Assembly (NCBI GenBank): GCA_037143175.1
Contig: JBAWZF010000026.1
Span: 1 to 37,716 of the forward strand
Reading direction: 5' to 3'
DNA length: 37,716 bases
Origin: a bacterium
GTDB lineage: Bacteria; Verrucomicrobiota; Kiritimatiellia; CAIKKV01; CAITUY01
The position numbers were made by a program, and so were the translations under genes. Positions within the stretch are counted from its first letter, which is position 1. Every line of letters starts with the position of its first letter. The notes under the pieces are model-generated. The model was not told where the DNA came from. It worked only from the letters and a program-made list of their open reading frames with translations, and made no database searches. This document shows, piece after piece, positions 15,181-37,333 of this stretch.

Positions 15181-15390
15181 CGGATTATCTCACCGTACGA
15201 CATTCAACTCAACCGCGAAGCCTTCTATCACTCGGTCTTTTTTGCCGCTCTCCAGGCGGCAGGCGGAGAAATCATCGCCGCATTGCACTCCGACAACCTA
15301 CTTCGCCAAGGCTACGAAGGTCAGGAGGGCCGCGCAGACGCCGTGATCAAGACCCCAAAAACCATCTAAGACATTGAGTGCCATTTGTCG
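15181..15390 (+). pseudogene. PD-(D/E)xK nuclease C-terminal fragment (DUF1703-like)
   Basis: Directly after the kinase stop and in the same frame, about 60 codons read SPYDIQLNREAFYHSVFF, then a GRADAVIKTPKTI segment. These match the C-terminal PD-(D/E)xK domain that follows AAA-ATPase domains in DUF1703-type proteins, where the continuation is normally I-Y-x-x-E-F-K. Here the tyrosine codon is TAA (15367-15369), and DIE follows beyond it. The start, the whole ATPase part and the C-terminal end are missing. It marks the edge of the accessory island and implies past recombination at the operon boundary. Confidence 0.6.
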
Positions 15391-15436
15391 CCAGCTCCCA
15401 TCATCCCGCTTGAACTATTGGCTTCAATTTAGCACC

Positions 15437-18748: not shown

Positions 18749-18772
18749 ATTATGAAGTATGAGTGATGAAGT

Positions 18773-19819
18773 ATGAAGACGCTTGAACAGATACGAGACC
18801 ATCGTCTGCAGATTCCCATGTCAGCTTCATGGTATTTGTCGGATATTGGTAAAGCCCAGGGGTTGCAGGAATTGTTTACTCGGCAATCGCCGCAGAAGTT
18901 GAAGGTGCTTAGGGAACATGCTGTTGCTCAAAGTGTGGTGTCCTCAAATCGGATAGAAGGGGTCACTATTGACGATTCACGGATTGGAACCGTTGTTTTT
19001 GGGCATCCTTCGCTACGGGATCGGGATGAGATTGAGGTGGCCGGTTATCGTGATGCCCTGAATCTTATCCATACGCAAGGCGCTGCACTTCCTGTCAACG
19101 AGGAGACCATTCTGAATCTTCACAAACTGAGTCGTGGAGAAAGTTGGGATGCAGGCCAGTATAAGGATAAGCCGGTAGACATCATTGAGAAATTCGCTGG
19201 TGGTGGGGAGCGAGTTCGGTTTCGAAGTGTGCTTCCAAAAGAGACTCCCGAGTTTACCTGCAAGCTGGTGACCCTGTGGCAGGATCAGAGCCGTGACCAT
19301 GACATCTCGCCCCTCATTGTCATGGCCGCCTTCAATCTGGATTTCCTCTGCATCCATCCGTTTCGCGATGGGAACGGGAGAGTGTCCCGGCTTCTATTGC
19401 TATTGACTGCCTACCATCTGGGGGTTGAGGTGGGGCGGTATGTCAGCCTTGAGCGGATTATTGAAGAGAATAAAGCACGGTATTACGAAACCCTTCAACT
19501 CAGTTCCAAAGGGTGGCATGAGGGAAAGCACGATCCCTGGCCCTATATTGGATACCTGTTGTACATCATCAAGAAGGCTTACGATGAGTTTGAGGAGCGG
19601 GCGGGCCAGATCGCTGCACCTCGTGGTGAAAAGAGTGAGATGGTGCTGAATTGGATCCGGGCTAGACAAGAGCCGTTTCGCTTGGTTGATGTTGAGTCGG
19701 CTTGTCCGGGGGTTGGAAGAGATTGGATTCGCACGCTTTTATTTGAACTCAAGAAAAAGGGGCGGCTTACGTGTTCTGGAAAGGGGCGTGCTGCCCGATG
19801 GAACTATGAAAAAGAATGA
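18773..19819 (+). CDS. Fic-domain AMP transferase, class II
   Basis: A 348-aa Fic/DOC-family protein that transfers AMP or a related group from a nucleotide to a target protein. The catalytic loop HPFRDGNGR (195-203) is complete. The N-terminal SSNRIEG (57-63) fits the inhibitory (S/T)xxxE(G/N) motif, with Glu62 the residue that blocks ATP, so the enzyme is self-restrained (class II). A C-terminal winged-helix-like tail (about 285-345) may bind DNA. The start is ATG 18773, 24 bp after the helicase stop; an 11-bp direct repeat ATGAAGTATGA spans the junction. Fic genes are frequent passengers within restriction loci. The target is unknown; regulation of the island is one option. Confidence 0.9.
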   Translation: MKTLEQIRDHRLQIPMSASWYLSDIGKAQGLQELFTRQSPQKLKVLREHAVAQSVVSSNRIEGVTIDDSRIGTVVFGHPSLRDRDEIEVAGYRDALNLIHTQGAALPVNEETILNLHKLSRGESWDAGQYKDKPVDIIEKFAGGGERVRFRSVLPKETPEFTCKLVTLWQDQSRDHDISPLIVMAAFNLDFLCIHPFRDGNGRVSRLLLLLTAYHLGVEVGRYVSLERIIEENKARYYETLQLSSKGWHEGKHDPWPYIGYLLYIIKKAYDEFEERAGQIAAPRGEKSEMVLNWIRARQEPFRLVDVESACPGVGRDWIRTLLFELKKKGRLTCSGKGRAARWNYEKE

Positions 19820-20175
19820 GTGTACTACACTCTATTGAGTGTATTATTGAGTGTATTGAGTGGTATGGCTTAAGTGAAATGTGTCAGAAAAGACGTAGTA
19901 CCCCTACGTAAGGGTATTCGTAGGGGTATTATCTTGTGCGGGTAATGGGTAATAGGTAGTGGTAATGGGTAATTTATTAGGTAAGGCCTTCAGATTTAGG
20001 CACTTACAAGGAAAGAGTGTAGTACACTTAAAAGAGTGTATTAAAGAGTGTACTGTGTCAGATTTGAGAAGAGGTATTACCCCAAATAAGGGTAATAATG
20101 AGGGTAATATCGTGATTCGAAATAGGTATTACCCAGTCAAGTGGGTAATGAAATAGGTAATTAATTAGGTAACGC
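19818..20175. repeat. Duplicated repeat-rich intergenic region
   Basis: This gap holds two diverged copies of one layout. Copy A (19818-19988) and copy B (20015-20175) each contain, in order: the palindrome GAGTGTA-N-TACACT (19818-19832; 20015-20028), two further GAGTGTA words, GTGTCAG (19881-19887; 20055-20061), a hairpin with a CCCC-containing arm, several GGGTAAT words and a final TTAGGTAA. Hairpins are TACCCCTACG with its complement (19899-19908/19919-19928), TATTACCC (20075-20082/20090-20097) and ATTACCCA (20128-20135/20142-20149). The region separates fic from the coupled regulator-methyltransferase pair, so it may be a multi-site operator, an attenuator or a small RNA source. No convincing gene is seen in it. 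Confidence 0.75.
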
Positions 20176-20179
20176 ATTG

Positions 20180-20869
20180 ATGACCGACCTCAAAACACTA
20201 CTTAAACAGGGCGAAGGCATAGCCGTTGAATTCAAGGTATGCCAGCGGGCACTCAGTCGGGACGTTTATAGTAAAAACCCGGTTATTGCCCATTTTTTCC
20301 AGCAGATCGGGCGGGCGGACGAACTGGGCTCCGGCACGCGCAAGTTAATGAAATACGGGAAACTCTTTGGCGGAAGTGATCCGGAACTGATTGAGGGAGA
20401 TGTTTTCCGGATTATCGTCAAATATCCTGATTTCGACGCCCCGCTGGCGGACCAGACTGTAGTCACCCCGCAAGTCACCCCGCAAGTCACCCCGCAAGTC
20501 AAAAATGATGATAAAGTACTGCATGATAACATCTTCCGTGAACTATCGAAGGAGTTTATGGCGTTAACCGGACAAGTCACCGGACAAGTCACCGGACAAG
20601 TCACCGCGCAAGTCGCCGCGCAAGTTGGTATGATACTCAATACGGTGGCACACGAATCAAATTCCCGGGAGACACTTCAAACAGCAACGGGCATGACAGA
20701 TCGTGAACACTTCCGGAAGGCGTATTTGGAACCTTTACTTTTGGTTGGCTGGATTGAGCGCACCATCCCCGACAAACCCACCAGCCGCCTCCAAAAATAC
20801 CGGCTGACCGCCAAAGGCAAAGCTCTGTTGAAATTCACAACGAAATCACAGGATAAAAAATTATTATGA
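20180..20869 (+). CDS. Internally deleted AlbA/RecG-like regulator with VTPQ repeats
   Basis: A 229-aa protein that reads as the two ends of a normally 450-500-aa Schlafen/AlbA_2-type ATP-binding protein. Residues 1-30 (LLKQGEGIAVEFKV, then RALSRDVY) are the AlbA_2 start. Residue 31 jumps directly to the far C-terminal part (KNPVIAHFF, IGRADELGSGTRKLM). About 300 residues with the nucleic-acid and ATPase-like core are gone, yet the frame is kept. The tail holds the tandem repeats (VTPQ)3 and (VTGQ)n, then a winged-helix-like end. The start is ATG 20180 after AGGTAA. Its stop overlaps the methyltransferase start as ATGA, so it is still translated as a leader. It could be a remnant kept for coupling, or a functional mini-regulator. 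Confidence 0.65.
   Translation: MTDLKTLLKQGEGIAVEFKVCQRALSRDVYSKNPVIAHFFQQIGRADELGSGTRKLMKYGKLFGGSDPELIEGDVFRIIVKYPDFDAPLADQTVVTPQVTPQVTPQVKNDDKVLHDNIFRELSKEFMALTGQVTGQVTGQVTAQVAAQVGMILNTVAHESNSRETLQTATGMTDREHFRKAYLEPLLLVGWIERTIPDKPTSRLQKYRLTAKGKALLKFTTKSQDKKLL
20462..20500 (+). repeat. 12-bp coding tandem repeat (VTPQ)
   Basis: Three near-perfect copies of GTCACCCCGCAA plus a partial fourth encode Val-Thr-Pro-Gln repeats inside the deleted regulator. The lengths can vary by slippage without shifting the frame. Confidence 0.9.
20567..20626 (+). repeat. 12-bp coding tandem repeat (VTGQ/VTAQ)
   Basis: Five units beginning ACCGGACAAGTC and drifting to ACCGCGCAAGTC and GCCGCGCAAGTT encode a second repeat array in the same protein. 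It is related to the array at 20462-20500 by the shared CAAGTC core. Confidence 0.88.
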
Positions 20870-23800
20870 CCAACCTTCGCCAACAATTATCCGGTGCACT
20901 CGCGGCTTTTGCCAAACAATCTGTAGTTGAAGCCGCAACCGCGTTATTTAAGACCCTTGGTTATCATAGCGAAAAAAGGATGGAGTTTTCCGGTCTGCAG
21001 GATTTTCTTGGCGAGATAGACCATGTCGGGAAATATACCAAACTCTTTCCGGATGCGCGCACGTCGGCAGGGCGTGCACCTGTTATGCTGCTACAGTTGA
21101 CCAGCGAGGAAATTGCTTCAGGCTCGGGTGGTCAACTCCTGTTAGTATCGGATAAAAAAGCAGATTTGCGTCTATTCGAGTCTTATCTTTTTCTAGCCAT
21201 TAGTCTGCCTGACCGAGCCTACACACGTGTCGAACTAGCTGACCGCGCTCGTGTCCTGAATGGCCTTTTTCGGCAGCCTGTTCTTATCCTGTTCCGTTAT
21301 TCTGACCTCATTTCCATGGCCATTACCTATCGCCGTGCCCACAAACGCGATCAGTCCCGAGATGTTTTGGATCGTAAGGTGACTCTCATCAAGGATATCA
21401 GTTGCACCCGGCCACATCGCGCGCATCTGGATATTCTCTTGGACTTCAGTCTGTCGAGTCTCTCTACCCCTCAGACGCCCATCAGCACCTTCGCTCAGTT
21501 AGATGACGCTTGGCGTAAGACCCTGAGTACTGAGGCCCTTAACCATCGCTTCTACAAAGAACTGGCTGCCTGGTATTACTGGGCCGTCAACACCATTCGC
21601 CTCCCCATTATCGCCGACTATCTGAAAGAGCGAAAAGATGCTCAGGATGAGAATATTAAACAGTTCACTATCCGACTGTTGTGTCGCACCATTTTTTGTT
21701 GGTTTCTGAAAGAACGAGGACTGATTGATCGACAACTGCTGGAAATTGCCGATGATGCCGGGCAGGATTTGATTCTTGTTCGTCAACCTTTAAAGGGCCA
21801 GAAATTCAGTGACGTCAGTAGTTATTACCGCGGCATTCTTCAGAACGTATTTTTTAACTGCCTCAATACCCCAATGGATCAACGCAGATTGGATGCTAGC
21901 CGCGCGGCCAATGACAAGACAGTTAAAGACCCTAAACTTAAAAAACTCTCATATCGCGGCAAACAACATTTGCCCGATGATTTTGATTACGATCTATTTG
22001 ATCGGATTCCCTACCTAAACGGGGGGCTATTCGATGTGCTGCCGGAAGACAATGCTTCCGACACTATTGATGACGATGTAATTCACGTACCTAATGACTT
22101 GTTCTACGCATCTGAACGGAAGTTCAAGCACGACAAGAAGATACTGGCAGTCAAGGGGCTCAATCGCATTCTTGATGGGTACAAGTTTACCATTGCCGAA
22201 AACACTCCGTTGGAAGAAGAAATTGCGCTGGATCCGGAACTCCTGGGTTTGGTTTTCGAGAATCTGCTGGCCGAAGTGGATACCAGCGATGAAGGCGCGG
22301 CAACCTCTGCCCGTAAGGCATCAGGTTCTTACTATACCCCCCGCCGTGTCATTGACTATATGGTTAATGAGGCACTGCGCCTCCACTTGGAAAATTACAT
22401 TCGAGCCCGTGCCGCTTCGCCGGAGGAGTGCCAGGCCTTGCAGAGTCTCCTCTATCATGACTCCTTTGATTCCAGCCAGAAGCGGTTAGCAGGGTGGATA
22501 GTTGAAGCATTTGATGAAATTCGTATCCTTGACCCTGCTTGCGGATCCGGTGCTTTTCCCATGGGTGCATTACATCGTATGGTCGCCCTCCTGCAACGTG
22601 TGGATCCACAGAATCGCCGCTGGTTACATCGACAAGTGAGTCACATTCCTGACCGCCATCTGCGTGAGACCGCCGAGAAGGAACTGGCCCGACATGCCGA
22701 TGACTATTCCCGCAAGCTAGGGTTGATAAAGAACGCGGTCTATGGTGTGGATATCCAGCCGCTAGCGGTGCTGATTACGAAACTGCGTTTTTTTATTTCA
22801 CTGCTGGTGGATCAAAATATCAACCTGGATAATCCCAAAGGCAATTATGGCCTCACTCCGCTTCCCAATCTGGAAACGAAGGTTCTCTGTGCCAACACGC
22901 TGCGCGAGGTGCAGGTTTCTCTATTTGAACGTGAAGCTATCCGGAAATATCAGTCGGCGCGTGACGAGTATTACCAGCCTGAGACGCAAACTACCCGACG
23001 TGAGGAATTGGCTGATGAAATCGCCGCCGCCTTGAGTGAATTACTGCCGGGATTCTCTAGGGAAGTGACGGGACACGAATATAAGGATAAACGAACTCAG
23101 GATCTCCGCAATCGCGAACTACTTAAGGAATGGTTCCGTCACTCGACTCTGCCTGCACCTTTTTTCAACTTTGCCGTCTTTTTCCCTGAAATCTGTGCCG
23201 ATGCCCCGGGCGCTACGGTTGGTGGTGAAATGCCCCTTGTCAACGATGCCCAAAAACAGCAGGAACTGGTTGTGCCGGGGCGGAAGACCCCCGCCAGCCC
23301 TCGATCTGGCTTCGATATTGTCATTGGAAATCCGCCCTATGGCGGCGACAAAATACCTGATGAGGTCAAGGAGGCATTACATCTGGGCTCCAAGGATCCC
23401 TACGGGGCCTTTATCGCCCGGTTTATGGGTGACGGAAAACAGTCCACGCCCCTGCGTATTGGCGGTGTGCTGAGTTACATCGTGTCCGATACCTTTATGA
23501 CCATCAAGACCCATCGGTCTTTGCGGGAACAGTTAATGGGGTCGCGCATTCACAAGATGATTCGGGTCCACCCGGATACCTTCTCGGCCACGGTCAACAC
23601 CGCCATCATATTGCTTCAAAGAGGTGGCGGGCCGGGAACGACTGCGCCAACGGAAGCAGAATTGACCGAGGCATGGGCCAAAGGGCCATGGTGTCAGATG
23701 GTTGACCTCACCCAAGTCAGTATCAGCGAGCAACATGACCGGTTCTTGAACCTGCTTTTTGAGACTGCAGGCTCCGAGCGCCGACGGGATGTGTCCACAG

Positions 23801-25698
23801 AATCTTGCGCAGTCTATCACTATCCTCAGACGCTGATCGCGAGAAACACGAATTTGCCATTTTTTGTTGCATCGCCAAAATTATTCGAACTAATGAATGA
23901 TACAACAGCTCCCGTGCGCCATGTAAAGCTTGGAGAGGTTGATACTCCGGTCCGCAGTCTTGTATTTAATGGGAGAACCGTACGCCTTGTAAGACTTGGC
24001 GATATTGCGGATGTAAAGCAAGGGTTGGCTACCGGAGACAATGACTCCTATCTCTTTCAGAGCCCTGAGGCCAGAGGCAGTTATAGGTCGATTGACCAAT
24101 ATAAACAGTTCTTGTTAACCGATGCGGATTTGGAACATATCCGATCCGATTCCGACTTGCGTCATGAAGTGAGTCAAAAGGGCATTTCGAAAGAAAACAA
24201 GAGCTCACGTCGGTATTTTGAAGGGCGCTATATTGTTCCATTTGACAAAGGTGGAGAATCAGATGCTGGAGAGGGGTGGACGCCTAATTACTGGGTTCCG
24301 ACTGACTACTTTATTGACTGGAGTGAATTCGCAATTGATAGAATGCGGACACTCACAATAGGTGTTCGTGATGATAACAAGCGTAATGAGCTATGTGCTG
24401 TTATCAGGAATGCCGATGCATATTTCGCGAAGGGTATCACTTACTCGCCAACCGGTATTTATTCGCCAAGTTTTCGACGAAGTTGTTGCGCAATTTTTGG
24501 GAATAAAGGATCTACGATAATCCCTCTATCCACAGATTTAGATACTTCGGCTCTCTTGGGTGTATTGGCCTCAAAAGCGTTTAAGTATTTCCTGAAACCA
24601 TACCGTGCACACACGGTTGAGTCTCCTGAGCAGGGTTTAGTGGATACGCAAATCCCTTTCCCGATCGTGGATGTTCGTGCCCTGGTAGCGAAGGTGATTG
24701 CAAAGCAACGAGCAGATCCGCGGTACGACTATGCGCCTGAAGAACAGTTAGAGATTGATCGGTTGGTTTATGATGCATACGGATTAACTCAAGCTGACAT
24801 TGCTGAGGTCGAAACGTGGTTTGTTCGCCGTTATTCGAGGTTAGCGACCGCCCAGCGTCGAAATTTGCGGGCAGCTGGTAAGGTGCCATACTTTGACCGA
24901 TGGTGTGTGTATTGCGATGAGACTGGCCATTTGGCCTACGATCATGCTCCGGACATGATTCTGGGCGCGTTGCTGGTGCCTCGTGATCGTGTCCGTCCGC
25001 TGACGGTGGCATTGCGTGAGCGTCTTGCTGAGCTTGGCTGGCCCGCTAAGCGGGAGCTCAAGTGGACCAAGGTGTCGCCTGCTGGCCTTAGGTTTTACGA
25101 GGTGGCTTTGGATTTCTTTCTAAACGAACCCGATTTACGGTTCCGAGCGCTCATTTCGCCAAAGCATCCGCCACCGCCAAAATTGCCCGCACCGCCATCT
25201 GGCGCCGCAGATCCCGAATCTGCTGATTGGGAGAAGTACAACAAGGTTTTAGAAGACTCTGCGCCAGCTGTTGTGGACTATATGCAGCGGCACGAAGCCT
25301 GGTACTACGACCGTTATTTCGATCTTTTACGCGAAACACTCATTCCACCAGCAAGACATGCTATTTTTGTGGATGTGAAGGACACGCGCGGTGGAACCAG
25401 GATCAGGGAACTTGAGAACCGGCTGGCCGATGCACATTACGATTGGACGCGCAGTGGAATTGTCGAAGGCGTGTCGCAAATTGCCAGTCACGATGTTCTG
25501 CTTGATCAACTGGTGGATATTCTGCTTGGTTGCGTGGCGTGGATACACAGCCATCCCCAGCGTAATGTCGGGCACCAACCCAGCCCTGCCAAGGCGGCGC
25601 TGGCCTCAAAAGTGAAGGCGATTCTGGATAAAGCGGATACGACTCTAGTGCCGAAAATCGTTGTGGAACGTTCGTTGGAAAGGAATCCAGTGATATGA
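20866..25698 (+). CDS. Eco57I-type adenine methyltransferase fused to a DUF3800-like domain
   Basis: A 1610-aa protein. Residues 1-480 are the N-terminal region seen in type IIG/Eco57I-like enzymes (RVLNGLFRQPVLILFRYSD near 125). The N6-adenine methyltransferase core has motif I ILDPACGSGAF (SAM binding, Asp556) and motif IV NPPYGG (Asn822). A TaqI-C-like target-recognition domain covers about 1030-1290 (GDIADVKQGLATGDND; FAKGITYSPTGIYSP). From about 1338 a second domain starts FDRWCVYCDETGHLAYD and ends SQIASHDVLLDQLVDILLGCVAW. This is the RNase-H-like DUF3800 pattern with its acidic residues. DUF3800 is normally a separate protein; this fusion is unusual. No PD-(D/E)xK site is evident, so cutting may come from DUF3800 or the PLD-helicase. 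Starts by ATGA overlap with the regulator; ends by ATGA overlap with the next gene. Confidence 0.85.
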   Translation: MTNLRQQLSGALAAFAKQSVVEAATALFKTLGYHSEKRMEFSGLQDFLGEIDHVGKYTKLFPDARTSAGRAPVMLLQLTSEEIASGSGGQLLLVSDKKADLRLFESYLFLAISLPDRAYTRVELADRARVLNGLFRQPVLILFRYSDLISMAITYRRAHKRDQSRDVLDRKVTLIKDISCTRPHRAHLDILLDFSLSSLSTPQTPISTFAQLDDAWRKTLSTEALNHRFYKELAAWYYWAVNTIRLPIIADYLKERKDAQDENIKQFTIRLLCRTIFCWFLKERGLIDRQLLEIADDAGQDLILVRQPLKGQKFSDVSSYYRGILQNVFFNCLNTPMDQRRLDASRAANDKTVKDPKLKKLSYRGKQHLPDDFDYDLFDRIPYLNGGLFDVLPEDNASDTIDDDVIHVPNDLFYASERKFKHDKKILAVKGLNRILDGYKFTIAENTPLEEEIALDPELLGLVFENLLAEVDTSDEGAATSARKASGSYYTPRRVIDYMVNEALRLHLENYIRARAASPEECQALQSLLYHDSFDSSQKRLAGWIVEAFDEIRILDPACGSGAFPMGALHRMVALLQRVDPQNRRWLHRQVSHIPDRHLRETAEKELARHADDYSRKLGLIKNAVYGVDIQPLAVLITKLRFFISLLVDQNINLDNPKGNYGLTPLPNLETKVLCANTLREVQVSLFEREAIRKYQSARDEYYQPETQTTRREELADEIAAALSELLPGFSREVTGHEYKDKRTQDLRNRELLKEWFRHSTLPAPFFNFAVFFPEICADAPGATVGGEMPLVNDAQKQQELVVPGRKTPASPRSGFDIVIGNPPYGGDKIPDEVKEALHLGSKDPYGAFIARFMGDGKQSTPLRIGGVLSYIVSDTFMTIKTHRSLREQLMGSRIHKMIRVHPDTFSATVNTAIILLQRGGGPGTTAPTEAELTEAWAKGPWCQMVDLTQVSISEQHDRFLNLLFETAGSERRRDVSTESCAVYHYPQTLIARNTNLPFFVASPKLFELMNDTTAPVRHVKLGEVDTPVRSLVFNGRTVRLVRLGDIADVKQGLATGDNDSYLFQSPEARGSYRSIDQYKQFLLTDADLEHIRSDSDLRHEVSQKGISKENKSSRRYFEGRYIVPFDKGGESDAGEGWTPNYWVPTDYFIDWSEFAIDRMRTLTIGVRDDNKRNELCAVIRNADAYFAKGITYSPTGIYSPSFRRSCCAIFGNKGSTIIPLSTDLDTSALLGVLASKAFKYFLKPYRAHTVESPEQGLVDTQIPFPIVDVRALVAKVIAKQRADPRYDYAPEEQLEIDRLVYDAYGLTQADIAEVETWFVRRYSRLATAQRRNLRAAGKVPYFDRWCVYCDETGHLAYDHAPDMILGALLVPRDRVRPLTVALRERLAELGWPAKRELKWTKVSPAGLRFYEVALDFFLNEPDLRFRALISPKHPPPPKLPAPPSGAADPESADWEKYNKVLEDSAPAVVDYMQRHEAWYYDRYFDLLRETLIPPARHAIFVDVKDTRGGTRIRELENRLADAHYDWTRSGIVEGVSQIASHDVLLDQLVDILLGCVAWIHSHPQRNVGHQPSPAKAALASKVKAILDKADTTLVPKIVVERSLERNPVI

Positions 25699-26195
25699 GC
25701 GGTAACTTGGTTTTTCCGCCGATTCTTCCGGATAATGGTGGTGTCCCAATTGTCGAACCCCAGTCGTTGACGAGATACCAGACTGATTTCCCCGCTGGTG
25801 GTACGCTGCCATCCGTGAGAGGCAAACCGGTTATGGTTCGTCGTGAACCCCACCCTGCGAATCCGGCTCGTGAATACACCTATTGGCATATGGTGACGGA
25901 GGGGGAGGATGAGGACGAACAAAAGCGTACTCCTGACTTGACCAGAATGATAAGGATGCCTTGGGCGAAACCGCTACTGATCAATCATGCCCACACCGCC
26001 GTCAAACGCTGGTGGAATGTGCGTTATGGAATGCGCCACTACTGTATTTGGCATTCGCCAGTAAATTATTTGGTGGTCATAAAAGAACGTTACGAGGGGC
26101 TGTTTCTCGTCACAACTTACTGTCCGATCCCGAAGCGAGCCTTAGGGTTTCACAAGGAATGGGCGATAGCAAAAAAAGCAGGCCGCACCTTTTGA
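25695..26195 (+). CDS. Small protein, possible BECR-fold nuclease
   Basis: A 166-aa protein whose ATG lies in the stop of the methyltransferase gene (ATGA). The core reads RTPDLTRMIRMPWAKPLL, then a histidine-rich turn (INHAHTAVKRWW), then YLVVIKERYEG and FLVTTYCPI. The order basic-PW helix, His turn, paired strands with LVV and a TxYC end resembles phage-type barnase/EndoU/ColicinE5/RelE (BECR) nucleases as I remember them, but I cannot confirm it. If right it would be an RNA- or DNA-cutting effector. Otherwise it is a protein of unknown function co-translated with the methyltransferase. The gene is real: overlap with its neighbour and even amino acid composition support it. Confidence 0.5.
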   Translation: MSGNLVFPPILPDNGGVPIVEPQSLTRYQTDFPAGGTLPSVRGKPVMVRREPHPANPAREYTYWHMVTEGEDEDEQKRTPDLTRMIRMPWAKPLLINHAHTAVKRWWNVRYGMRHYCIWHSPVNYLVVIKERYEGLFLVTTYCPIPKRALGFHKEWAIAKKAGRTF

Positions 26196-29057: not shown

Positions 29058-31109
29058 ATGGAACAGATGACAGAATCGGTTAAAGATAATTTGGAATGGT
29101 TGGCGGATCTCAATCCTCAGCAACGACAGGCCGTCGTTCATGGAGAAGGACCTCTCTTGGTGGTGGCTGGCGCGGGGAGTGGTAAAACTAAAACCCTTGC
29201 CTATCGTGTGGCCTATTTGATCGCCCAGGGCGTAAACCCCGCGAATATCTTGCTTATGACGTTCACCCGGCGCGCCGCCGAGGAGATGCTGAGTCGGGCC
29301 GCCGCGGTCAGTATGCATAGCGCCCACATGACGGGCCGCGTCTGGGGCGGGACGTTTCATGCCATCGCCAATCGGCTCCTTCGCACCTACTCAAAACAGG
29401 CAGGCCTGCCTAATAATTTTACGGTAATGGATCAGTCGGATTCCGAAGATCTGCTCAATGTGATTCGCAATGAATTAAACATCGGCAAAAATGACAAACG
29501 CTTTCCCCGCAAGAATACGTGTCTCGCGATCTATTCGCGTTGCGTCAATGGGGGCGAGAAACTCGAAACGGTGCTGGTGAAACAGTTTTCCTGGTGTCTG
29601 GAATATCAGGAGGAACTGAAAAGTTTATTCAGCAATTATGTCATCCGCAAGCAGCAGCGGGGCGTCATGGATTACGATGATCTCTTGCTGTATTGGCTGC
29701 AATTGTTGAGCAATGACGATCTCGCTCGTGAAATTGGCGGTCGGTTTGATCATGTGTTGGTGGATGAATACCAGGATACCAATCTGGTCCAGGCTGATAT
29801 TTTACGGGCACTGCGGAAATTCAATCCGAATATCATGGCGGTGGGTGACGACGCTCAAAGTATCTACGGGTTCCGGGCGGCGAATGTCCGTAATATCCTT
29901 GATTTTCCCGAGCAGTTCCCCGGCGCAACGGTGATTACCCTGGAACAGAATTACCGCTCTGTCTGTCCCATTCTGGAAACGACCAACCGTCTGATCAGCC
30001 AGGCCCATGACCGTTTTACCAAGGATCTCTGGTCTGCCCGCAAGGAGGGGCAGCGGCCCATGATTGTGACCTGCCGGGACGAGGCCTCACAAGATGTCTT
30101 TGTTGTGGATCGTATCAGGGAGCATCTCGAAAAGGGGATCCCCTTGAATAAACAGGCGGTTCTATTCCGCTCCGGTCATCTATCAGACTCTCTGGAAATT
30201 GCCCTGACCACCCGGAATATTCCCTATCATAAATATGGCGGACTTCGCTTCCTGGATGCGGCGCATGTCAAGGACCTGATCAGTTTCCTGCGCGTCTCTG
30301 AAAATGCGTCCGATGAAATTGCCTGGTTCCGGGTTTTGCAGATGATCGATGGGATCGGGCCGGCGACAGCGGCTAAGATCGTTAATCATATCAGTAGGGC
30401 CCATGATCCCCTCGCCATGAAAACATTTCCAGTACCAGCCTCTGCCAGGGCTGGCTGGAATTTACTCGGTAAACTGCTGGATGATCTGGTGGCGGCGGGG
30501 GAGTCGGAGCCGGTAGCTCAGATTCAACGCATCCGGACATTCTATGAACCGCTCATGAGTCTCCGTTATGAAAATGCCCAGTCCCGAGTCCGTGATTTGG
30601 ACCACATAGAGCAGGTCGCCTCCAAGTACAAGTCACGGCGGCAATTGCTGACCGATCTGACGTTGGATCCGCCTAACTCAACCCGTGATATCGCCTCGCA
30701 TGCCGCGCAACATGATGACCGGCTGGTATTATCCACGATTCATTCCGCCAAGGGGTGCGAATGGGATGTCGTGTATGTGATCCACGCTTCGGATGGCTCC
30801 CTGCCTTCCGAAAAATCCACCGGCAGCGAAAAGGACCTTGAGGAGGAGCGGCGACTGGCGTATGTCGCCATGACCCGCGCCCGTGATATCCTTTACATTA
30901 CCTGGCCCAGGCGGGTCTATCAACGCTGGGGGGCGGCAGGGGGGAAGCATGCAAATGCTCAGATCTCCCGTTTTATCAACGATGACGTGCGCGCCTCCTG
31001 TTCCATGATGTCTTTTGGGGATAGTGGTGGGTATTCGGATGATCGTTCTTATGATCAGAGGGATATCATTGGCCGCGTTCGCAATCAGGTCAATTCCCGA
31101 TGGGATTGA
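29058..31109 (+). CDS. UvrD/PcrA-type superfamily 1 DNA helicase
   Basis: A 683-aa ATP-dependent 3'-5' DNA helicase. Seen in order: Q-motif-like LNPQQRQAV, Walker A VVAGAGSGKTKTL, Ia MTFTRRAAEEM, FHAIANRLLR, Walker B LVDEYQDTN, motif III VGDDAQSIYGFRAA, motif IV EQNYRS, motif V LSTIHSAKGCEWDVVY and motif VI YVAMTRARD. The length is close to PcrA/UvrD. The start is ATG 29058; ATG 29067 is possible. It acts in repair and replication-conflict resolution. The 3' end overlaps the convergent lytic transglycosylase gene by 20 bp. Confidence 0.93.
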   Translation: MEQMTESVKDNLEWLADLNPQQRQAVVHGEGPLLVVAGAGSGKTKTLAYRVAYLIAQGVNPANILLMTFTRRAAEEMLSRAAAVSMHSAHMTGRVWGGTFHAIANRLLRTYSKQAGLPNNFTVMDQSDSEDLLNVIRNELNIGKNDKRFPRKNTCLAIYSRCVNGGEKLETVLVKQFSWCLEYQEELKSLFSNYVIRKQQRGVMDYDDLLLYWLQLLSNDDLAREIGGRFDHVLVDEYQDTNLVQADILRALRKFNPNIMAVGDDAQSIYGFRAANVRNILDFPEQFPGATVITLEQNYRSVCPILETTNRLISQAHDRFTKDLWSARKEGQRPMIVTCRDEASQDVFVVDRIREHLEKGIPLNKQAVLFRSGHLSDSLEIALTTRNIPYHKYGGLRFLDAAHVKDLISFLRVSENASDEIAWFRVLQMIDGIGPATAAKIVNHISRAHDPLAMKTFPVPASARAGWNLLGKLLDDLVAAGESEPVAQIQRIRTFYEPLMSLRYENAQSRVRDLDHIEQVASKYKSRRQLLTDLTLDPPNSTRDIASHAAQHDDRLVLSTIHSAKGCEWDVVYVIHASDGSLPSEKSTGSEKDLEEERRLAYVAMTRARDILYITWPRRVYQRWGAAGGKHANAQISRFINDDVRASCSMMSFGDSGGYSDDRSYDQRDIIGRVRNQVNSRWD

Positions 31110-31809
31110 TCGTGGGGATAGTGGGTGAAGGTAATGCGCTAAGTTGTGTGTTTTCGCGAAGGGCCAGGGTGGTCATGACCTTGATGACGTAGACTTGGGT
31201 TTGAGGGGGGAGGTATGGGGCGATGGCTTCGTATTCACTGGTCTCATGCTTTTTCAGCAGTCTTCCCACGCATCCTTCCCCGGCATTATAGGCAGCGACG
31301 GCCAGAGTCCAATCACTGAACTGAGCATAAAGTTTTGCAAGATATCGGGCGGCGGCTTTGGCGCTTTTTTCCGGTTCAGCACGAAAATCATCGGCCTCTT
31401 TCAGAAGGCCGAATCGTCTGGCGGCCTCCCTTTTGAACTGGAATAAACCCCGTGCGCCTGAGCCACTGACGGCGTTGGTGTTAAGCATGGATTCAACTTC
31501 GGCTACCCATGCCAGTTCCTGGGGTAAACCTTCAATGACAAACCATCTTTTTAATTCTGGAATAAGCACTTTGGCATGATCCGGAAGCGTGCTTTGGGCC
31601 TGTCGCTTGGCCCACAGGCCCCCCTTGACAATGCAGGGCCATCGGTTTTTTTCGAAATGCGGATCAAGGAGGGGGGCATCCTCGAATTTTAATTCAAGTT
31701 TGGGGCAGACTTCTGGAGTGTTGGGTGCCGGATATAACTCCAGGCAGGGAGTGCCCTGGGCGATTCCAGACAGGAGAAAGATGAATAATAGAACCGAAGG
31801 TGCTGTCAC
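31090..31809 (-). CDS. Lytic transglycosylase, SLT domain
   Basis: A 239-aa exported murein lytic transglycosylase. A signal peptide covers residues 1-20 (LLFIFLLSGIAQG). The SLT domain shows the catalytic glutamate in AEVESMLN (Glu106), then SGARGLFQF and AVAAYNAGEG, the usual motifs. It cleaves peptidoglycan between MurNAc and GlcNAc with 1,6-anhydro product. The start is GTG 31809, 11 bp after the stop of the 643-aa gene, so the two are probably one operon. Convergent 20-bp overlap with the helicase gene. No LysM or membrane anchor is visible. Confidence 0.9.
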   Translation of the reverse strand: MTAPSVLLFIFLLSGIAQGTPCLELYPAPNTPEVCPKLELKFEDAPLLDPHFEKNRWPCIVKGGLWAKRQAQSTLPDHAKVLIPELKRWFVIEGLPQELAWVAEVESMLNTNAVSGSGARGLFQFKREAARRFGLLKEADDFRAEPEKSAKAAARYLAKLYAQFSDWTLAVAAYNAGEGCVGRLLKKHETSEYEAIAPYLPPQTQVYVIKVMTTLALRENTQLSALPSPTIPTINPIGN

Positions 31810-31820
31810 TGGGTGTATGA

Positions 31821-33752
31821 TTATTTCGTGAACTCTTTCCGGATGGAACTTTCCAGGTTGGCGGGCTTAGTGTGGTTCAGTCTGTCCAAAACACGCTCCC
31901 ACCGATACGCAAAACTTCCTCGCTCATCGCGTGGGCGATGTTTAAAGAGCATGTCGAAAGCCCGCTTTCGCAAGCGATAGTCCTGCTGGATATGCAGCAC
32001 CCGCTCGACAAAAGAGGCGAGATAGGCATCTATCACGGCTTGGGGCGATGGAAAGAATGGAATCCGCCGGAGAATGGGAGCGGCATAGGAGCTGGCAAAA
32101 GTGTCCAGAGGTGAGAAATAGTCGGTAAAGGTACCGGTGTGATCCGAGACAATGAGTTCGGTGGGGAAGCCAGAACTATTTTCAAGAATGACTTCATCGC
32201 CATCATCGAAAAGCACCGAGTTCTGTAGGTTCATGCGCCCGACAATCAGGCTGGATGCCGCCGCTTTTCCAAGTAACTCGGCAAATTTGATGCAATAGGC
32301 GGGATTCAAAAATCGAGATCGTGGAATTTTGTCGCTTGCCAGCCCGGGGAGATAGTCGCGCTCGAAATAGGTAGACCAGATGAGTTGTCCATCATACCGG
32401 GTACCCCGGTAATGTTCGCTGATTTTACGGGTGGTCATGCGGGGCGGTAGATTCATGCCAAGCTGGCGGCAGCCCAGCCGCCGGTCAAGGATGTACTCGG
32501 TATACTCCTCCGCTTCCATGATCGAGGGGAGCAGGTCTTTTCCTTCATTAAGATGTTCCCGGATTCCCCACTTTTGCATGCGGCTGATGCGGACAACAGG
32601 GCGGTCAATATTTGCCTGTTTAACTTCCGAGACGTAGACATCCCGACGTCCCGCGCTTGTTGGGCGTCGGGAAAGGGAGCCTATGACCCGGCCGATGTTG
32701 ACGTATTCGATATCGCCAAATTCCCTGACGAAATTAAAAATAAACCCCCGTGCTTTTTCGTCACACAACATTTGTAAGTCAGGCGATTCCGGATGGCGGT
32801 CGAGTTCGTCAAAAATGGAGTCGAATATAAGTTCGCCTTCTTCAATTTTGCCGCCAGGCAGCCATTCGATTTGCATGAAGAATTCAGGACTCAACCCCAG
32901 TAACACTTCTTCGGGAATCGTTTTGTCGTGTTGGCCGAGAAGTGCAGAAAACATCATGTTCCGCCATTGCACATCCTCGATATTATCCTCGCGTAATTCC
33001 GAGGGAACGGCCTCGCGAAAGGCATCTTTAAGGGTTTCGTAGCAGGTGCGGATGGGGCCCTCAAGCGCATGGGAAAAACGGGTGTGGGTAAAGGTTTTGT
33101 CGGCAGCAAAGAACGCGACCTCTGGATGAGCCATACGGTTGTATTTGCCGGAATAGTCACGGATCTCAATGAGATGGCTTTTTAACTCGGCGTCTGGAAG
33201 GTTGCCGAGGTTGCAAAACTGTTGAAAGCTGATGAAGCGTGTTCCCGTGTCGCGGCTGTAGTAATAGATGGCTTTACCCCCGATCGGGGTAATAGAGGCA
33301 TGAATCATCCGCTTCATTTCATCAGGCGTTTGGGGCAGTGAGGCAATTCGCCAATTCTCGCCACGACTCTTAATGCCTGAGCGGACTTTCTCATTCATGA
33401 GGTTCAGGAACTTGATTTTTTGTTTGGACACCAATTCCTGCAACAGCTCATCAGCTTCGAAGGCGAGGGCCATATTTTCGGGATCGGGCCGGATCAGGAT
33501 GCCGCTGGAATCCATGATCAAGTCGACCGAATTCTGCCACTCGCGCATTTCGTCTTCTTCATCCAATTTGGGTTGGCCTGATGCGAGTCGTGTCGCATTA
33601 ATGTCGGCAATGTAGGCTATACTTTGAGTGGCATGGATGCCGGGCAGGGTCACCAGAGTTCGGCTTCGTGGAAAAAGAGTCCCAGTTCTGGATAGCAAAC
33701 GTCCTTCGCGATCAACAGCCAGAGGATGTGCGCCTAAAATTCGTATAGTCAT
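31821..33752 (-). CDS. Large protein of unknown function, possibly kinase-like
   Basis: A 643-aa soluble protein, with ATG 33752 preferred to TTG 33764. I do not recognise the family. A central stretch has HARFSHALEGP-like acidic/aromatic patches (TFTHTRFSHALEGPIRTC). The C-terminal half reads LIVGRMNLQNSVLFDDGDEVI, which faintly recalls the catalytic-loop and DFG region of aminoglycoside-kinase-like folds (GR-x-N-x-x-N then an acidic strand), but the expected HxD is absent. There is no signal peptide or membrane span. The gene is divergent from the ATP-grasp/Mur-ligase pair, 100 bp away, and is followed by a lytic transglycosylase, so a cell-envelope or peptide-ligation role is possible. Confidence 0.7.
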   Translation of the reverse strand: MTIRILGAHPLAVDREGRLLSRTGTLFPRSRTLVTLPGIHATQSIAYIADINATRLASGQPKLDEEDEMREWQNSVDLIMDSSGILIRPDPENMALAFEADELLQELVSKQKIKFLNLMNEKVRSGIKSRGENWRIASLPQTPDEMKRMIHASITPIGGKAIYYYSRDTGTRFISFQQFCNLGNLPDAELKSHLIEIRDYSGKYNRMAHPEVAFFAADKTFTHTRFSHALEGPIRTCYETLKDAFREAVPSELREDNIEDVQWRNMMFSALLGQHDKTIPEEVLLGLSPEFFMQIEWLPGGKIEEGELIFDSIFDELDRHPESPDLQMLCDEKARGFIFNFVREFGDIEYVNIGRVIGSLSRRPTSAGRRDVYVSEVKQANIDRPVVRISRMQKWGIREHLNEGKDLLPSIMEAEEYTEYILDRRLGCRQLGMNLPPRMTTRKISEHYRGTRYDGQLIWSTYFERDYLPGLASDKIPRSRFLNPAYCIKFAELLGKAAASSLIVGRMNLQNSVLFDDGDEVILENSSGFPTELIVSDHTGTFTDYFSPLDTFASSYAAPILRRIPFFPSPQAVIDAYLASFVERVLHIQQDYRLRKRAFDMLFKHRPRDERGSFAYRWERVLDRLNHTKPANLESSIRKEFTK

Positions 33753-33852: not shown

Positions 33853-34776
33853 ATGAATTCCATTTATACCACGACGATTACCCGGGAGGCGCAGCGGCGC
33901 GGGATCGGGATTGAAGTCATCGATCCCGTGACACCTGTGTTTGTATTGAAGCATAAAGGCAAGCGGATCAGATGTTATAATGCCCTTACAGACCAGGTGG
34001 GCGCGGTGACCTTTCACATGACGCAAAGCAAGCGTCTGGCCAACATTTTTCTAAAATCAAACGGGTTCCCTGTGCCAGCCCAGCAGTCGTTTTCGGATTT
34101 GGCCGCCGCCAAAACTTTTTTGAAAAAGTACAAGACGATTGTAGTCAAGCCCTGTACCCAATGGGGGGGGCGCGGGGTTTCGGTGGCCGTTCGCACCCTG
34201 AAAGAGCTTTTCCTGGCGATTGAGTTTGCCCGGGAATATGAGGAAGAGATTGTGCTGGAGGAGTTCGTCAGCGGTGAGGATTATCGGCTCATTTTTGTGG
34301 ACTACCGGTATGTGGCGGCTATTCGCCGACGGGCTGCCCGAGTCACTGGTAATGGGCGGGATTCCATCCGTAAACTTATATTGGCTCAAAATCGAATCGA
34401 GCGGCAACAGGATCCCAGTCATGTGATTCCTTTGGATTCAGAGACGAGCCGTAATCTTACGGCGCTGGGATTGAAATGGGGGAGTGTGCCGAAGGCTGGG
34501 CGAGCGGTTCAGGTGCGACTCACCTCAAATTACCATACCGGTGGGAGCGTGGATATTGTCACCCGGGAGGTTAAGCCTGTTTTGGTGAAACTCGCGGCTC
34601 GGGCTGCCAAAAAGTTGGGTGTACCGGTGATTGGGATTGATTTTCTCGTTAACGAAAAGACCGGGAAATTCTGGTTAATCGAGTTGAGCCCCGATCTGGC
34701 CATATCTCCGCCTGAAGGGGATATTGTGGTTCGCCATTTCATCGATTATCTCTTCCCGGAGACGCGAGGACAATGA
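33853..34776 (+). CDS. ATP-grasp ligase, cyanophycin-synthetase-like
   Basis: A 307-aa ATP-grasp enzyme. An N-terminal lobe has KSNGFPVPAQ, followed by VVKPCTQWGGRGVSV (ATP/Mg loop), EEFVSGEDYRLIF, VTGNGRDSIRKLI and the C-terminal magnesium-binding region GIDFLVNEKTGKFWLIELSP. This is the ATP-grasp half of cyanophycin synthetase (CphA) and of GshB-like ligases, which join an amino acid or peptide to a carboxyl group through an acyl phosphate. CphA normally has this half and a Mur-ligase half in one chain; here the Mur half is the next gene, one base after the stop. The start is ATG 33853, without a clear ribosome binding site. Substrate unknown. Confidence 0.85.
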   Translation: MNSIYTTTITREAQRRGIGIEVIDPVTPVFVLKHKGKRIRCYNALTDQVGAVTFHMTQSKRLANIFLKSNGFPVPAQQSFSDLAAAKTFLKKYKTIVVKPCTQWGGRGVSVAVRTLKELFLAIEFAREYEEEIVLEEFVSGEDYRLIFVDYRYVAAIRRRAARVTGNGRDSIRKLILAQNRIERQQDPSHVIPLDSETSRNLTALGLKWGSVPKAGRAVQVRLTSNYHTGGSVDIVTREVKPVLVKLAARAAKKLGVPVIGIDFLVNEKTGKFWLIELSPDLAISPPEGDIVVRHFIDYLFPETRGQ

Positions 34777-34777
34777 T

Positions 34778-36112
34778 ATGACCACTGAAATGATAAAATC
34801 ATGCCATCTGGTAGGTGTGGCCGGAGTAGGAATGAATGCTCTGGCGCAGGCGCTTAGCGGCGGGGGATGGCGCGTGAGCGGGTCGGACCGGTATCAGGAT
34901 CAAGGCCAGGATCTTGAGGTGATTCACAAACTCAAGGAAGCGGGCATCCAATTTTATCCTCAGGATGGCCAGGGTGTGAAGCCGGATACGGGTGCCGTGG
35001 TGGTCAGCACGGCCATCGAACAGGATAATCCCGATATTGCGGCGGCTCAACGGTTGAAGGTTCCGGTTCGTCATCGCGCCGAAATGCTGGCGGAGCTGGT
35101 GGCGGGTAAAGAGGTGGTTGCCATTGCCGGGACATCCGGAAAAACAACAGTTACCGGAATGATGGGCTGGTTGTTGGAACAGTTGGGGGCAGATCCCACG
35201 GTGGTGAATGGGGGCGTGCTGGTCAATTGGGCTGATGCCACCCGTATTGGGAACGTCCGCACAGGGCAATCGCGGTTGTGTGTGATTGAGGCGGACGAGA
35301 GTGATCGGTCGTTGTTGAAATTTAATCCAGACTGGGCACTGATTACAAATATGTCTGCTGATCATTTCAGCCTTGAGGAGACCGAGCGTCTGTTCGCGCA
35401 GTTCAGGGGGCAGGTCCGGCGTGAGTGCATTGCCGGTTGGGATCCGGGAATGCCCTGGCAGGAAGTGTCACCGCAACTGGACAGGCGAGGTGTCCGATTT
35501 AAGTTTGAGGGGCTTGCGTTTGAGATCCCAATGCTGGGGGCGCACAATGCCGAAAATGCAATGCAGGCTGCGATGCTGTGCCGGCGTATGGGGTTCGGGC
35601 TCAAACCCATTCGGGATGCGTTGAGCCAGTTCAGGGGCATCCAGCGACGACTTGAACTGATCGGGGAAGCTGCCGGCGTGACCGTACTGGATGAATACGC
35701 TCATAATCCTGCAAAGATCGCGGCGGCCTGGCGGGCGGTCGCTCCCCATTACCGTCGCGTACTGGCGTTCTGGCGTCCGCATGGGTACAGGCCTCTGTCG
35801 CTGATGTTTGATGATCTGCTTGAAACCTTTGTGGAGGTGTGTCGGCCGAACGATAAACTCTACCTGCTGCCTGTCTACTACGCTGGCGGTACCGTCAGCA
35901 AGCAACGTGATGCGGATGAACTGGTTGCCAGATTACGGGAGCGCGGGGTTTCTGCCGAGTGGATGACTGAATATGAAGTGATGATGGCGGAGATCGTGGC
36001 GCAGGCAAAGAGCGGGGATGTTGTGCTTTGCATGGGGGCTCGTGATCCCGGTATTCCAAAGTTTGCCCGGGAGTTGGTAGTTAATTTGAAAAATATCGAG
36101 GCAAAAGGTTGA
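34778..36112 (+). CDS. Mur ligase, MurC-like
   Basis: A 444-aa ATP-dependent amino acid ligase of the Mur family. The N-terminal Rossmann-like part reads HLVGVAGVGMNALAQAL as in MurC and Mpl. The P-loop GTSGKTT spans residues 118-124. The middle domain has EADESD, TNMSADHF and GAHNAENAMQA; the C-terminal domain has VLDEYAHNPAKI. The start is ATG 34778, with GAGGA at 34766-34770; the upstream in-frame ATG at 34724 lies within the ATP-grasp gene. Together with the ATP-grasp gene it resembles a split CphA, although the N-terminus is closest to MurC. UDP-MurNAc:alanine ligation is the alternative reading, but MurC is usually in a dcw cluster, which is absent here. Confidence 0.88.
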   Translation: MTTEMIKSCHLVGVAGVGMNALAQALSGGGWRVSGSDRYQDQGQDLEVIHKLKEAGIQFYPQDGQGVKPDTGAVVVSTAIEQDNPDIAAAQRLKVPVRHRAEMLAELVAGKEVVAIAGTSGKTTVTGMMGWLLEQLGADPTVVNGGVLVNWADATRIGNVRTGQSRLCVIEADESDRSLLKFNPDWALITNMSADHFSLEETERLFAQFRGQVRRECIAGWDPGMPWQEVSPQLDRRGVRFKFEGLAFEIPMLGAHNAENAMQAAMLCRRMGFGLKPIRDALSQFRGIQRRLELIGEAAGVTVLDEYAHNPAKIAAAWRAVAPHYRRVLAFWRPHGYRPLSLMFDDLLETFVEVCRPNDKLYLLPVYYAGGTVSKQRDADELVARLRERGVSAEWMTEYEVMMAEIVAQAKSGDVVLCMGARDPGIPKFARELVVNLKNIEAKG

Positions 36113-36169: not shown

Positions 36170-36246
36170 GGGGGATTAGCTCAGTTTGGTAGAGCGCTTG
36201 AATGGCATTCAAGAGGTCGCGGGTTCGACCCCCGCATCCTCCACCA
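36170..36246 (+). tRNA. tRNA-Ala (GGC)
   Basis: A complete cloverleaf: acceptor GGGGGAT with ATCCTCC (one G-T pair), D arm GCTCAGTTTGGTAGAGC, anticodon stem-loop CTTGAATGGCATTCAAG with anticodon GGC, T arm CGGGTTCGACCCCCG and an encoded ACCA end. Confidence 0.96.
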
Positions 36247-36268: not shown

Positions 36269-37333
36269 ATGAAGATGCATATGGAATTTCAGCCAGACTA
36301 TCGGCATTTTACGAACGTGATGCTGAACAAACGCCCCGTTCGCCTACCGCTGTACGAGCATATTGTCAACGCGGCATCCATGGAAAAGATTCTGGGCCTG
36401 CGCTTTGCCGAATTGGAAGGCGGAAACGCGAAGGATAAAGCCGAGTACTTTCACCAGCATTGTCGTTTCTTCCGCCAGATGACATACGACACGGTGTCGT
36501 ACGAAGTCTGTATCGGCGCGACGTTGCCGGGGAAGATGGCGATTTGCGGCGGCCAAGGTCCCATTCAATCCCGCTCGGACTTCAATGCCTATCCGTGGAA
36601 TGAATTGCCCCTGCTTTATTGGCGTTACGCTCGTCCGCGCCTGGACGCCCTCGTTGCCGCGCTACCGTCCGGCATGAAGGCGGTCGGCGGGGTCGGCAAC
36701 GGTGTGTTTGAACTGGCCGAAAGCCTGGTCGGGATGGAATACCTCCCTTTCATGGAAGTGGACGATCCGGATCTCTACGCCGACTTGTTCCGTGCTATCG
36801 GCGATCTGATGTGCGCCATTTGGGAGGAATTCATGCCGCGCTACGGAACGTACTTTGCGGCCTGCCGTTTTGGGGACGATCTCGGCTTCAAGTCGTCGCT
36901 TCTGACCAATCCGGCGACAGTTCGTGGGCACATCCTCCCGCAGTATCGCCGTGTGATTGACATCGTGCATTCCGGTAACGGACTATTTCTCTGGCATTCA
37001 TGCGGGTGTATCTTTGAAATCATGGACGACGTGATCGCCTTGGGGATCGACGCGAAACACTCGAATGAAGATTCAATCGCTCCGTTCGATCGCTGGATCA
37101 CGGCCTATGGCGACAGGATAGGTCTGTTGGGTGGCTTTGACATGGATTTCCTGTGCGGGAATACTCCGGACGTCATCTACGACAAGGTGCGTGAAGCGGG
37201 CAGACGATTCAGGAAGTCGTCGCAAGGGTATGCCTTGGGTTCAGGGAACTCCATTCCAGCCTATGTCCCGACCGACAACTACCTTGCCATGATCCGAGCG
37301 GCTCAGGATTTGCGGCAAGAAGAATCCACCTGA
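36269..37333 (+). CDS. URO-D superfamily protein with HxC metal site
   Basis: A 354-aa member of the uroporphyrinogen decarboxylase superfamily. It has the family N-terminus (NKRPVRLPLYEH), GDDLGFKSSLL (the usual active-site strand) and the zinc motif HSCG (His243, Cys245), as in MtaA-type methyltransferases and the first URO-D gene of this window. GLLGGFDMDFLCG and a C-terminal GYALGSGNSIP complete the pattern. The start is ATG 36269, ATG 36275 or ATG 36281; no clear ribosome binding site helps to choose. It is monocistronic: tRNA-Ala lies upstream and an intrinsic terminator downstream. The methyl donor and acceptor are unknown. Confidence 0.82.
   Translation: MKMHMEFQPDYRHFTNVMLNKRPVRLPLYEHIVNAASMEKILGLRFAELEGGNAKDKAEYFHQHCRFFRQMTYDTVSYEVCIGATLPGKMAICGGQGPIQSRSDFNAYPWNELPLLYWRYARPRLDALVAALPSGMKAVGGVGNGVFELAESLVGMEYLPFMEVDDPDLYADLFRAIGDLMCAIWEEFMPRYGTYFAACRFGDDLGFKSSLLTNPATVRGHILPQYRRVIDIVHSGNGLFLWHSCGCIFEIMDDVIALGIDAKHSNEDSIAPFDRWITAYGDRIGLLGGFDMDFLCGNTPDVIYDKVREAGRRFRKSSQGYALGSGNSIPAYVPTDNYLAMIRAAQDLRQEEST

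Follow-up and report, generated by a model that had tools for sequence, protein, structure and literature searches.

Two neighboring ligase genes of a Kiritimatiellia bacterium would, on the reading that we favor, encode functionally separate enzymes: a fifth peptidoglycan Mur ligase that stands in for Mpl, for which we use the label MurX, and an ATP-grasp ligase of the N-acetylglutaminylglutamine (NAGGN) synthetase type. We put the probability of this reading at about 50%. Both genes lie in the window, the whole of contig C26 (JBAWZF010000026.1; 37,716 nucleotides) of genome G000, an assembly of 3.3 Mb in 107 contigs that is 95% complete. The stand-alone ATP-grasp gene (33853..34776, + strand; 307 aa) and the gene for MurX (34778..36112, + strand; 444 aa) were identified by open reading frame, Pfam and NCBIfam searches; each is intact and starts with ATG, and a single base separates the stop codon of the first from the start codon of the second. 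This arrangement had been described correctly in an earlier note, which took the pair for a split cyanophycin synthetase (CphA).

MurX would be additional to MurC, MurD, MurE and MurF in bacteria of the Verrucomicrobiota type. Its N-terminal domain would bind UDP-MurNAc and its middle domain ATP, as in MurC, and an acyl-phosphate would be formed on the lactyl carboxylate of UDP-MurNAc. This intermediate would then be attacked by an acceptor amine that is not free L-alanine and is independent of the arginine pair used by MurC. The likeliest acceptor would be a murein peptide released by wall turnover, L-Ala-D-Glu-A2pm or longer, and MurX would in this way perform the job of Mpl in lineages without Mpl. 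The ATP-grasp protein would be a carboxylate-amine ligase of the NAGGN-synthetase type, placed before MurX only in one genus (g1). We infer the UDP-MurNAc donor, the peptide acceptor and the recycling role. Support for this reading of MurX comes from the predicted fold, the domain set, the loss of the arginine pair, separate descent, the co-presence of MurC, wall-gene neighbors and the lack of co-occurrence with Mpl.

Wall synthesis in the phylum is usually described with MurA to MurG only. If the favored reading is true, an extra Mur ligase beside MurC changes how MurC is counted in genomes of the phylum, and MurX could explain the reuse of wall peptides in lineages without Mpl. It would also offer a test case for the refitting of the MurC scaffold to another acceptor. 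The fold of MurX is ordinary; what is new is its acceptor site and its distribution.

Relationship of MurX to MurC

MurX contains PF01225, PF08245 and PF02875 in this order, each above its gathering score. PF01225 covers residues 10-111, and residues 1-110 (34778..35107, + strand) appear to form a MurC-type UDP-MurNAc-binding Rossmann domain. The nearest family model was that of MurC (TIGR01082), with a score of 289.6 bits, under its cut-off of 335.1. An AlphaFold model of MurX had a mean pLDDT of 92, and the top PDB structure match of this model was MurC 1p3d (Z 44.6, rmsd 2.0, 417 residues). Lower values were obtained with Mpl 3hn7 (Z 29.4) and with CphA1 (Z 23.6, over residues 110-435 only); CphA1 chains aligned to no more than residues 109/110-439 of the model, which excludes the N-terminal domain. 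MurX is, therefore, predicted to have the three-domain MurC fold with a UDP-MurNAc-type N-terminal domain. The MurC-like N terminus that the earlier note had pointed to is present, and the likeness extends over the whole chain in both the model scores and the structure match.

Motifs were counted in 134 MurX proteins read from their loci. The EADESD, DH, GxHNAxNA and RR motifs are retained in MurX, and counterparts of MurC Tyr346, His348 and His376 were found by alignment, while Arg377 and Arg380 of MurC are aligned with Gly and Pro, respectively. The roles of these five MurC residues are described in passages of PMC3060825, according to which Arg377 and Arg380, in the motif PHRxxR, bind the incoming amino acid, L-Ala. 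The corresponding motif of MurX, WRPHGYRPL (residues 332-340; 35771..35797, + strand), aligns to PHRYSR of MurC, which carries this arginine pair. PHGxxP was present in 132 of the 134 MurX proteins and PHRxxR in none, versus 17 of 17 MurC rows; the class MurC rows had been selected by GTHGKT, so their P-loop count is given by construction, and PHRxxR was no criterion. The P-loop of MurX, GTSGKTTVT (residues 118-126; 35129..35155, + strand), has a replacement for the His of the MurC motif, and the loss of this His was observed in 134/134 proteins. A C-terminal signature, GARDP (residues 420-424; 36035..36049, + strand), belongs to a GAR[DNE] motif found in all 134 proteins, with an invariant Arg that is new relative to MurC. 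The motif HNP is prominent in the class but was present in only 107 of the 134 proteins and is, therefore, no family-wide mark of MurX.

G000 also encodes a true MurC, which lies within a frame of 832 aa on a different contig, scored 387.7 bits and has kept the MurC motifs. Matches to the MurC family were detected in all of the 143 class genomes searched, 115 of which had a match above the cut-off. MurX shares with MurC the three-domain fold, the UDP-MurNAc-type N-terminal domain and the EADESD and DH motifs but differs in a shorter middle domain, the lost P-loop His, its placement in a separate clade and its residence beside a true MurC. The alignments point to MurX being a paralogue of MurC in which the acceptor site has changed.

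Such a change might also have led elsewhere. It is possible, though with clearly lower odds than the Mpl-like reading, that MurX joins another acceptor (an amino acid, an amino acid amide or an amine) to UDP-MurNAc, giving a second wall precursor and making MurX the equivalent of neither MurC nor Mpl. The absence of both carboxylate-binding arginines, the retention of counterparts of His376, Tyr346 and His348 and the new invariant Arg in GARD all favor another acceptor; evidence on both sides of this alternative from distribution and gene neighbors is given below. That MurX is a second ligase for L-alanine (or glycine or serine), acting as an isozyme of MurC under other conditions, is unlikely. 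MurC is indeed its nearest model and structure, and the UDP-MurNAc-type domain and the ATP site are retained, but the counts for PHGxxP, PHRxxR and the P-loop argue against an isozyme, as do the separate MurC of the same genome, with MurC motifs, and the separate descent of MurX.

The ATP-grasp gene and its pairing with MurX

CphA combines an ATP-grasp ligase and a Mur-ligase domain in a single chain. The window resembles it in encoding both kinds of ligase, ATP-grasp and Mur-type, in neighboring genes, and the fold of the middle and C-terminal Mur domains is common to CphA and MurX. A split CphA was nevertheless ruled out by model scores, domain content and the lack of conserved adjacency. 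MurX scored 31.8 bits with the CphA model (TIGR02068), versus 289.6 with that of MurC, and the ATP-grasp protein scored 159.7 bits with TIGR02068 (160-162 with CphA models), versus 252.2 bits (E 9.4e-75) with the NAGGN-synthetase model TIGR03103, the top score among all NCBIfam models. CphA is without the UDP-MurNAc-type N-terminal domain that MurX carries. The alignment of the ATP-grasp protein begins at CphA position 161-162, the preceding part of CphA being missing here, and the two ligases are separate genes whose pairing is not conserved beyond genus g1. The best PDB sequence matches of the ATP-grasp protein were solved CphA chains, which may have been the source of the split-CphA impression. 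The proposal that the pair makes a peptide jointly is likewise unsupported, given the wrong Mur subfamily, the extra UDP-MurNAc-type domain and an adjacency confined to one genus.

The ATP-grasp protein covers positions 241-546 of the 547-position NAGGN-synthetase model (TIGR03103, ngg), matching the ATP-grasp half of this enzyme end to end. The GNAT acetyltransferase half is absent, and for this reason the 569-bit cut-off is not reached. Plasmid relatives with 37-39% identity are annotated as ngg where named. The protein is not a D-Ala-D-Ala ligase, Ddl models giving only 23-26 bits. At a threshold of E ≤1e-40, matches were found in 46 of 288 class genomes, 34 of them at identities of at least 49%; the other 12, at 34-37%, were mostly in longer frames. 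Those of 34-37% in family f13 (G007, G024, G036, G048 and others) occupied frames of at least 585 aa, approximately the full length of NAGGN synthetase. A Mur ligase beside an ATP-grasp is also a feature of the MurC-Ddl fusion of Chlamydiae and relatives (PRK14573), and the class MurC is often in fusion-length frames, as with the 832-aa frame of this genome; the pair in the window, in contrast, is neither that MurC nor Ddl.

In each of the six genus g1 genomes the ATP-grasp and MurX genes lie side by side (in one of them the contig stops within MurX), and they overlap by 4 bases in sister genomes of the genus. The 1-base gap and these overlaps suggest co-translation within genus g1. Searches with tblastn did not find MurX in any of the 15 other ATP-grasp loci or the ATP-grasp gene in any of the 129 other MurX loci. 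The pair is a genus-level juxtaposition, seen only in genus g1 among the loci examined. This result invites caution over adjacency as a guide to function: a striking pair was present in one genus, while the conserved signal resided in MurX alone. A partner for the ATP-grasp protein was sought in 15 other genomes, where neighbors were mostly dissimilar and did not indicate a substrate; in family f7 they were alike, comprising DUF6941, DUF362, an acyltransferase, an aldolase and an FGGY kinase.

A two-protein peptide synthetase of genus g1, with the ATP-grasp protein supplying a short peptide for ligation to UDP-MurNAc by MurX, is improbable. Both enzymes form amide bonds, and the short gap, the overlaps and the 6/6 adjacency would suit such a system, but no proximity was seen outside genus g1 (0/15 ATP-grasp loci and 0/129 MurX loci) and the two genes differ widely in range (238/288 class genomes for MurX versus 46/288 for the ATP-grasp gene).

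Upstream of the pair is a divergent gene (31821..33752, − strand) for a protein of 643 aa, as counted from ATG. Pfam and NCBIfam searches of this protein were without a match, its structure prediction had a mean pLDDT of 46, and it is 62-85% identical to six relatives. Its cluster was present in seven loci (six of genus g1 and one of genus g2) and was divergent to the ATP-grasp gene in all seven. The earlier note had proposed a conserved set of ATP-grasp, Mur ligase and 643-aa genes. This set was rejected: the genus g2 locus has the 643-aa gene and the ATP-grasp gene without MurX, and adjacency of the ATP-grasp and Mur genes was limited to genus g1. In G093, of this sister genus, the ATP-grasp and 643-aa genes point away from each other just as they do in the window, and MurX is on another contig. 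The 643-aa gene is not part of the conserved surroundings of MurX. Beyond it lies a gene with a transglycosylase SLT domain (31090..31809, − strand; Pfam). The two genes had been offered as support for an envelope connection; both exist, but the transglycosylase cluster was present in only 3 of 6 genus g1 loci.

Descent of MurX and its distribution relative to Mpl

At E ≤1e-60, MurX was detected in 238/288 class genomes, and it was also present in other classes of the phylum. A profile search at E ≤1e-80 found it in 224 of 387 phylum genomes, 104 of these being outside the class. Mpl (TIGR01081, E ≤1e-60) was found in 121 of the 387 genomes, 60 of them above the Mpl cut-off. No genome among the 387 had both MurX and Mpl, and 42 had neither at the thresholds used. 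The absence of genomes with both favors murein peptides over another acceptor for MurX. Mpl, like MurX, is a MurC relative retained beside MurC, its distribution in the phylum is complementary, and the task that we propose for MurX would be the same. MurX differs from Mpl in its clade and in scoring 124.4 bits with TIGR01081, far under the cut-off of 388.7. Passages of PMC3060825 give the Mpl-specific loop as (S/T)AFFDKRSK; the alignment showed CAFFDKRSK for E. coli Mpl and no such loop in MurX.

Phylogenetic analysis separated 29 MurC and Mpl rows from 50 MurX rows with an SH-aLRT value of 98. This tree of 80 rows was built by a quick method and rooted on E. coli MurD with a long root branch; one of the 29 rows was long and unassigned, and some proteins were entered under two names. 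The topology points to MurX forming a group outside MurC and Mpl, with a separate descent. In an rpoB tree of 30 genomes, hand-chosen by family, the 14 genomes with Mpl formed one clade (99/96), with MurX on both sides of it. These trees suggest that MurX is ancestral and that Mpl arrived later. As one switch on the rpoB tree accounts for the exclusion, it may reflect ancestry rather than replacement, and the Fisher test of the counts is not independent evidence. A more tentative proposal than the favored reading takes MurX for an ancestral fifth UDP-MurNAc ligase with an acceptor other than L-Ala (a murein peptide or another amine) that one large lineage lost on acquiring Mpl; in genus g1 the acceptor would perhaps be made by the co-translated ATP-grasp protein.

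The range of MurX given here rests on phylum genomes, plasmid records and one contig scan and is not evidence of restriction to the phylum. Among the matches listed for plasmid records (20 of 74 records), identities to MurX reached up to 34.5%. The scan of genome contigs gave nine MurX loci, labeled PVC group (1), Verrucomicrobia (2), Kiritimatiellae (1), bacterium (1) and uncultured bacterium (4). MurX of family f61 (L181, L182) groups with that of G290, yet the rpoB of this family (G319) falls in the other large clade, and the discordance hints at a transfer of MurX. Locus L016 carries, roughly 600 bases upstream of its complete MurX gene, a second, partial N-terminal piece (2185-2616; residues 18-161, 67% identity), which may be the remnant of a duplicated copy. 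Searches of a collection of open-access papers, including one on the distribution of Mpl, listed no description of such a paralogue of MurC; print beyond it may differ, and the MurX family is apparently undescribed.

Gene neighbors of MurX

Neighbors of MurX were counted in 48 loci outside the class and 86 within it. Outside the class, a penicillin-binding protein was encoded directly upstream of MurX in 9 of the 48 loci, in the dcw cluster, and MraW is encoded some 2.3 kb farther upstream; these loci all belonged to family f52 and were spread over six genera (Pfam for examples). This dcw position is consistent with the use of another acceptor to make a second wall precursor. An oligopeptide ABC ATPase was directly upstream in 3/48 loci, all of family f61, preceded by an OppC-type permease in two of the three, and an S66 LD-carboxypeptidase was directly downstream of MurX in one of them. 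This permease and carboxypeptidase context favors murein peptides over another acceptor and, together with the exclusion of Mpl, is the reason why a murein peptide is preferred here.

Within the class, a bactofilin was directly upstream of MurX in 16/86 loci, usually preceded by another bactofilin. The bactofilin pair is co-directional with MurX (L107, L113, L116, L226 and L257), and the second bactofilin has a cysteine-rich stretch. The envelope connection of the earlier note is supported for MurX by the PBP/dcw, oligopeptide permease and bactofilin neighbors of its relatives, but not for the reasons originally given. No repeated wall neighbor was recognised in the remaining loci of the 48 and 86. 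A peptide-transporter link within the class was considered and rejected, two repeated neighbors being nucleotide-sugar dehydratase-like (by eye) and flippase-like (Pfam LPG_synthase_TM).

Genes for recycling were scarce in the class: LD-carboxypeptidase was present in 6/96 genomes and AnmK in 0/96, G000 being without both. This scarcity speaks against recycling of the E. coli type in the class and is in keeping with another acceptor. A comparison of 80 hand-chosen genomes, taken from the 121 with Mpl and the 104 non-class genomes with MurX, gave LD-carboxypeptidase in 1/40 of the former versus 36/40 of the latter; as the gene is rare in Mpl genomes too, its scarcity in the class is not decisive and weighs little. 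Counting against an Mpl-like MurX are, then, the single switch, the failed Mpl model, the missing Mpl loop, the few recycling genes in the class, the confinement of the permease and carboxypeptidase context to one family (f61) and the presence of FolB beside MurX.

FolB was directly upstream of MurX in 14/86 class loci from 12 families (e.g., L108, L111, L112, L118 and L250), and a short-chain dehydrogenase gene often preceded it. FolC is another Mur-fold enzyme and acts in pterin/folate metabolism, but a function of MurX outside the wall, e.g., in this metabolism, is the least probable of the alternatives in view of the full MurC-type N-terminal domain and the bactofilin, PBP and oligopeptide-permease contexts found elsewhere.

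In the window itself, MurX is followed by a tRNA-Ala gene (36170..36246), and genes of the uroporphyrinogen-decarboxylase type are present at both ends (36269-37333 and 761-2008). The region 15374-26195, where the GC content drops to about 48%, is likely an anti-phage island. It encodes a 1124-aa protein with PLD and SNF2 helicase parts, for which the best PADLOC model was HKD+Snf2, followed by DrmD, and also a Fic protein (SoFic-like), a 1610-aa Eco57I/type IIG-like methylase and a PDC-M04B-like small protein.
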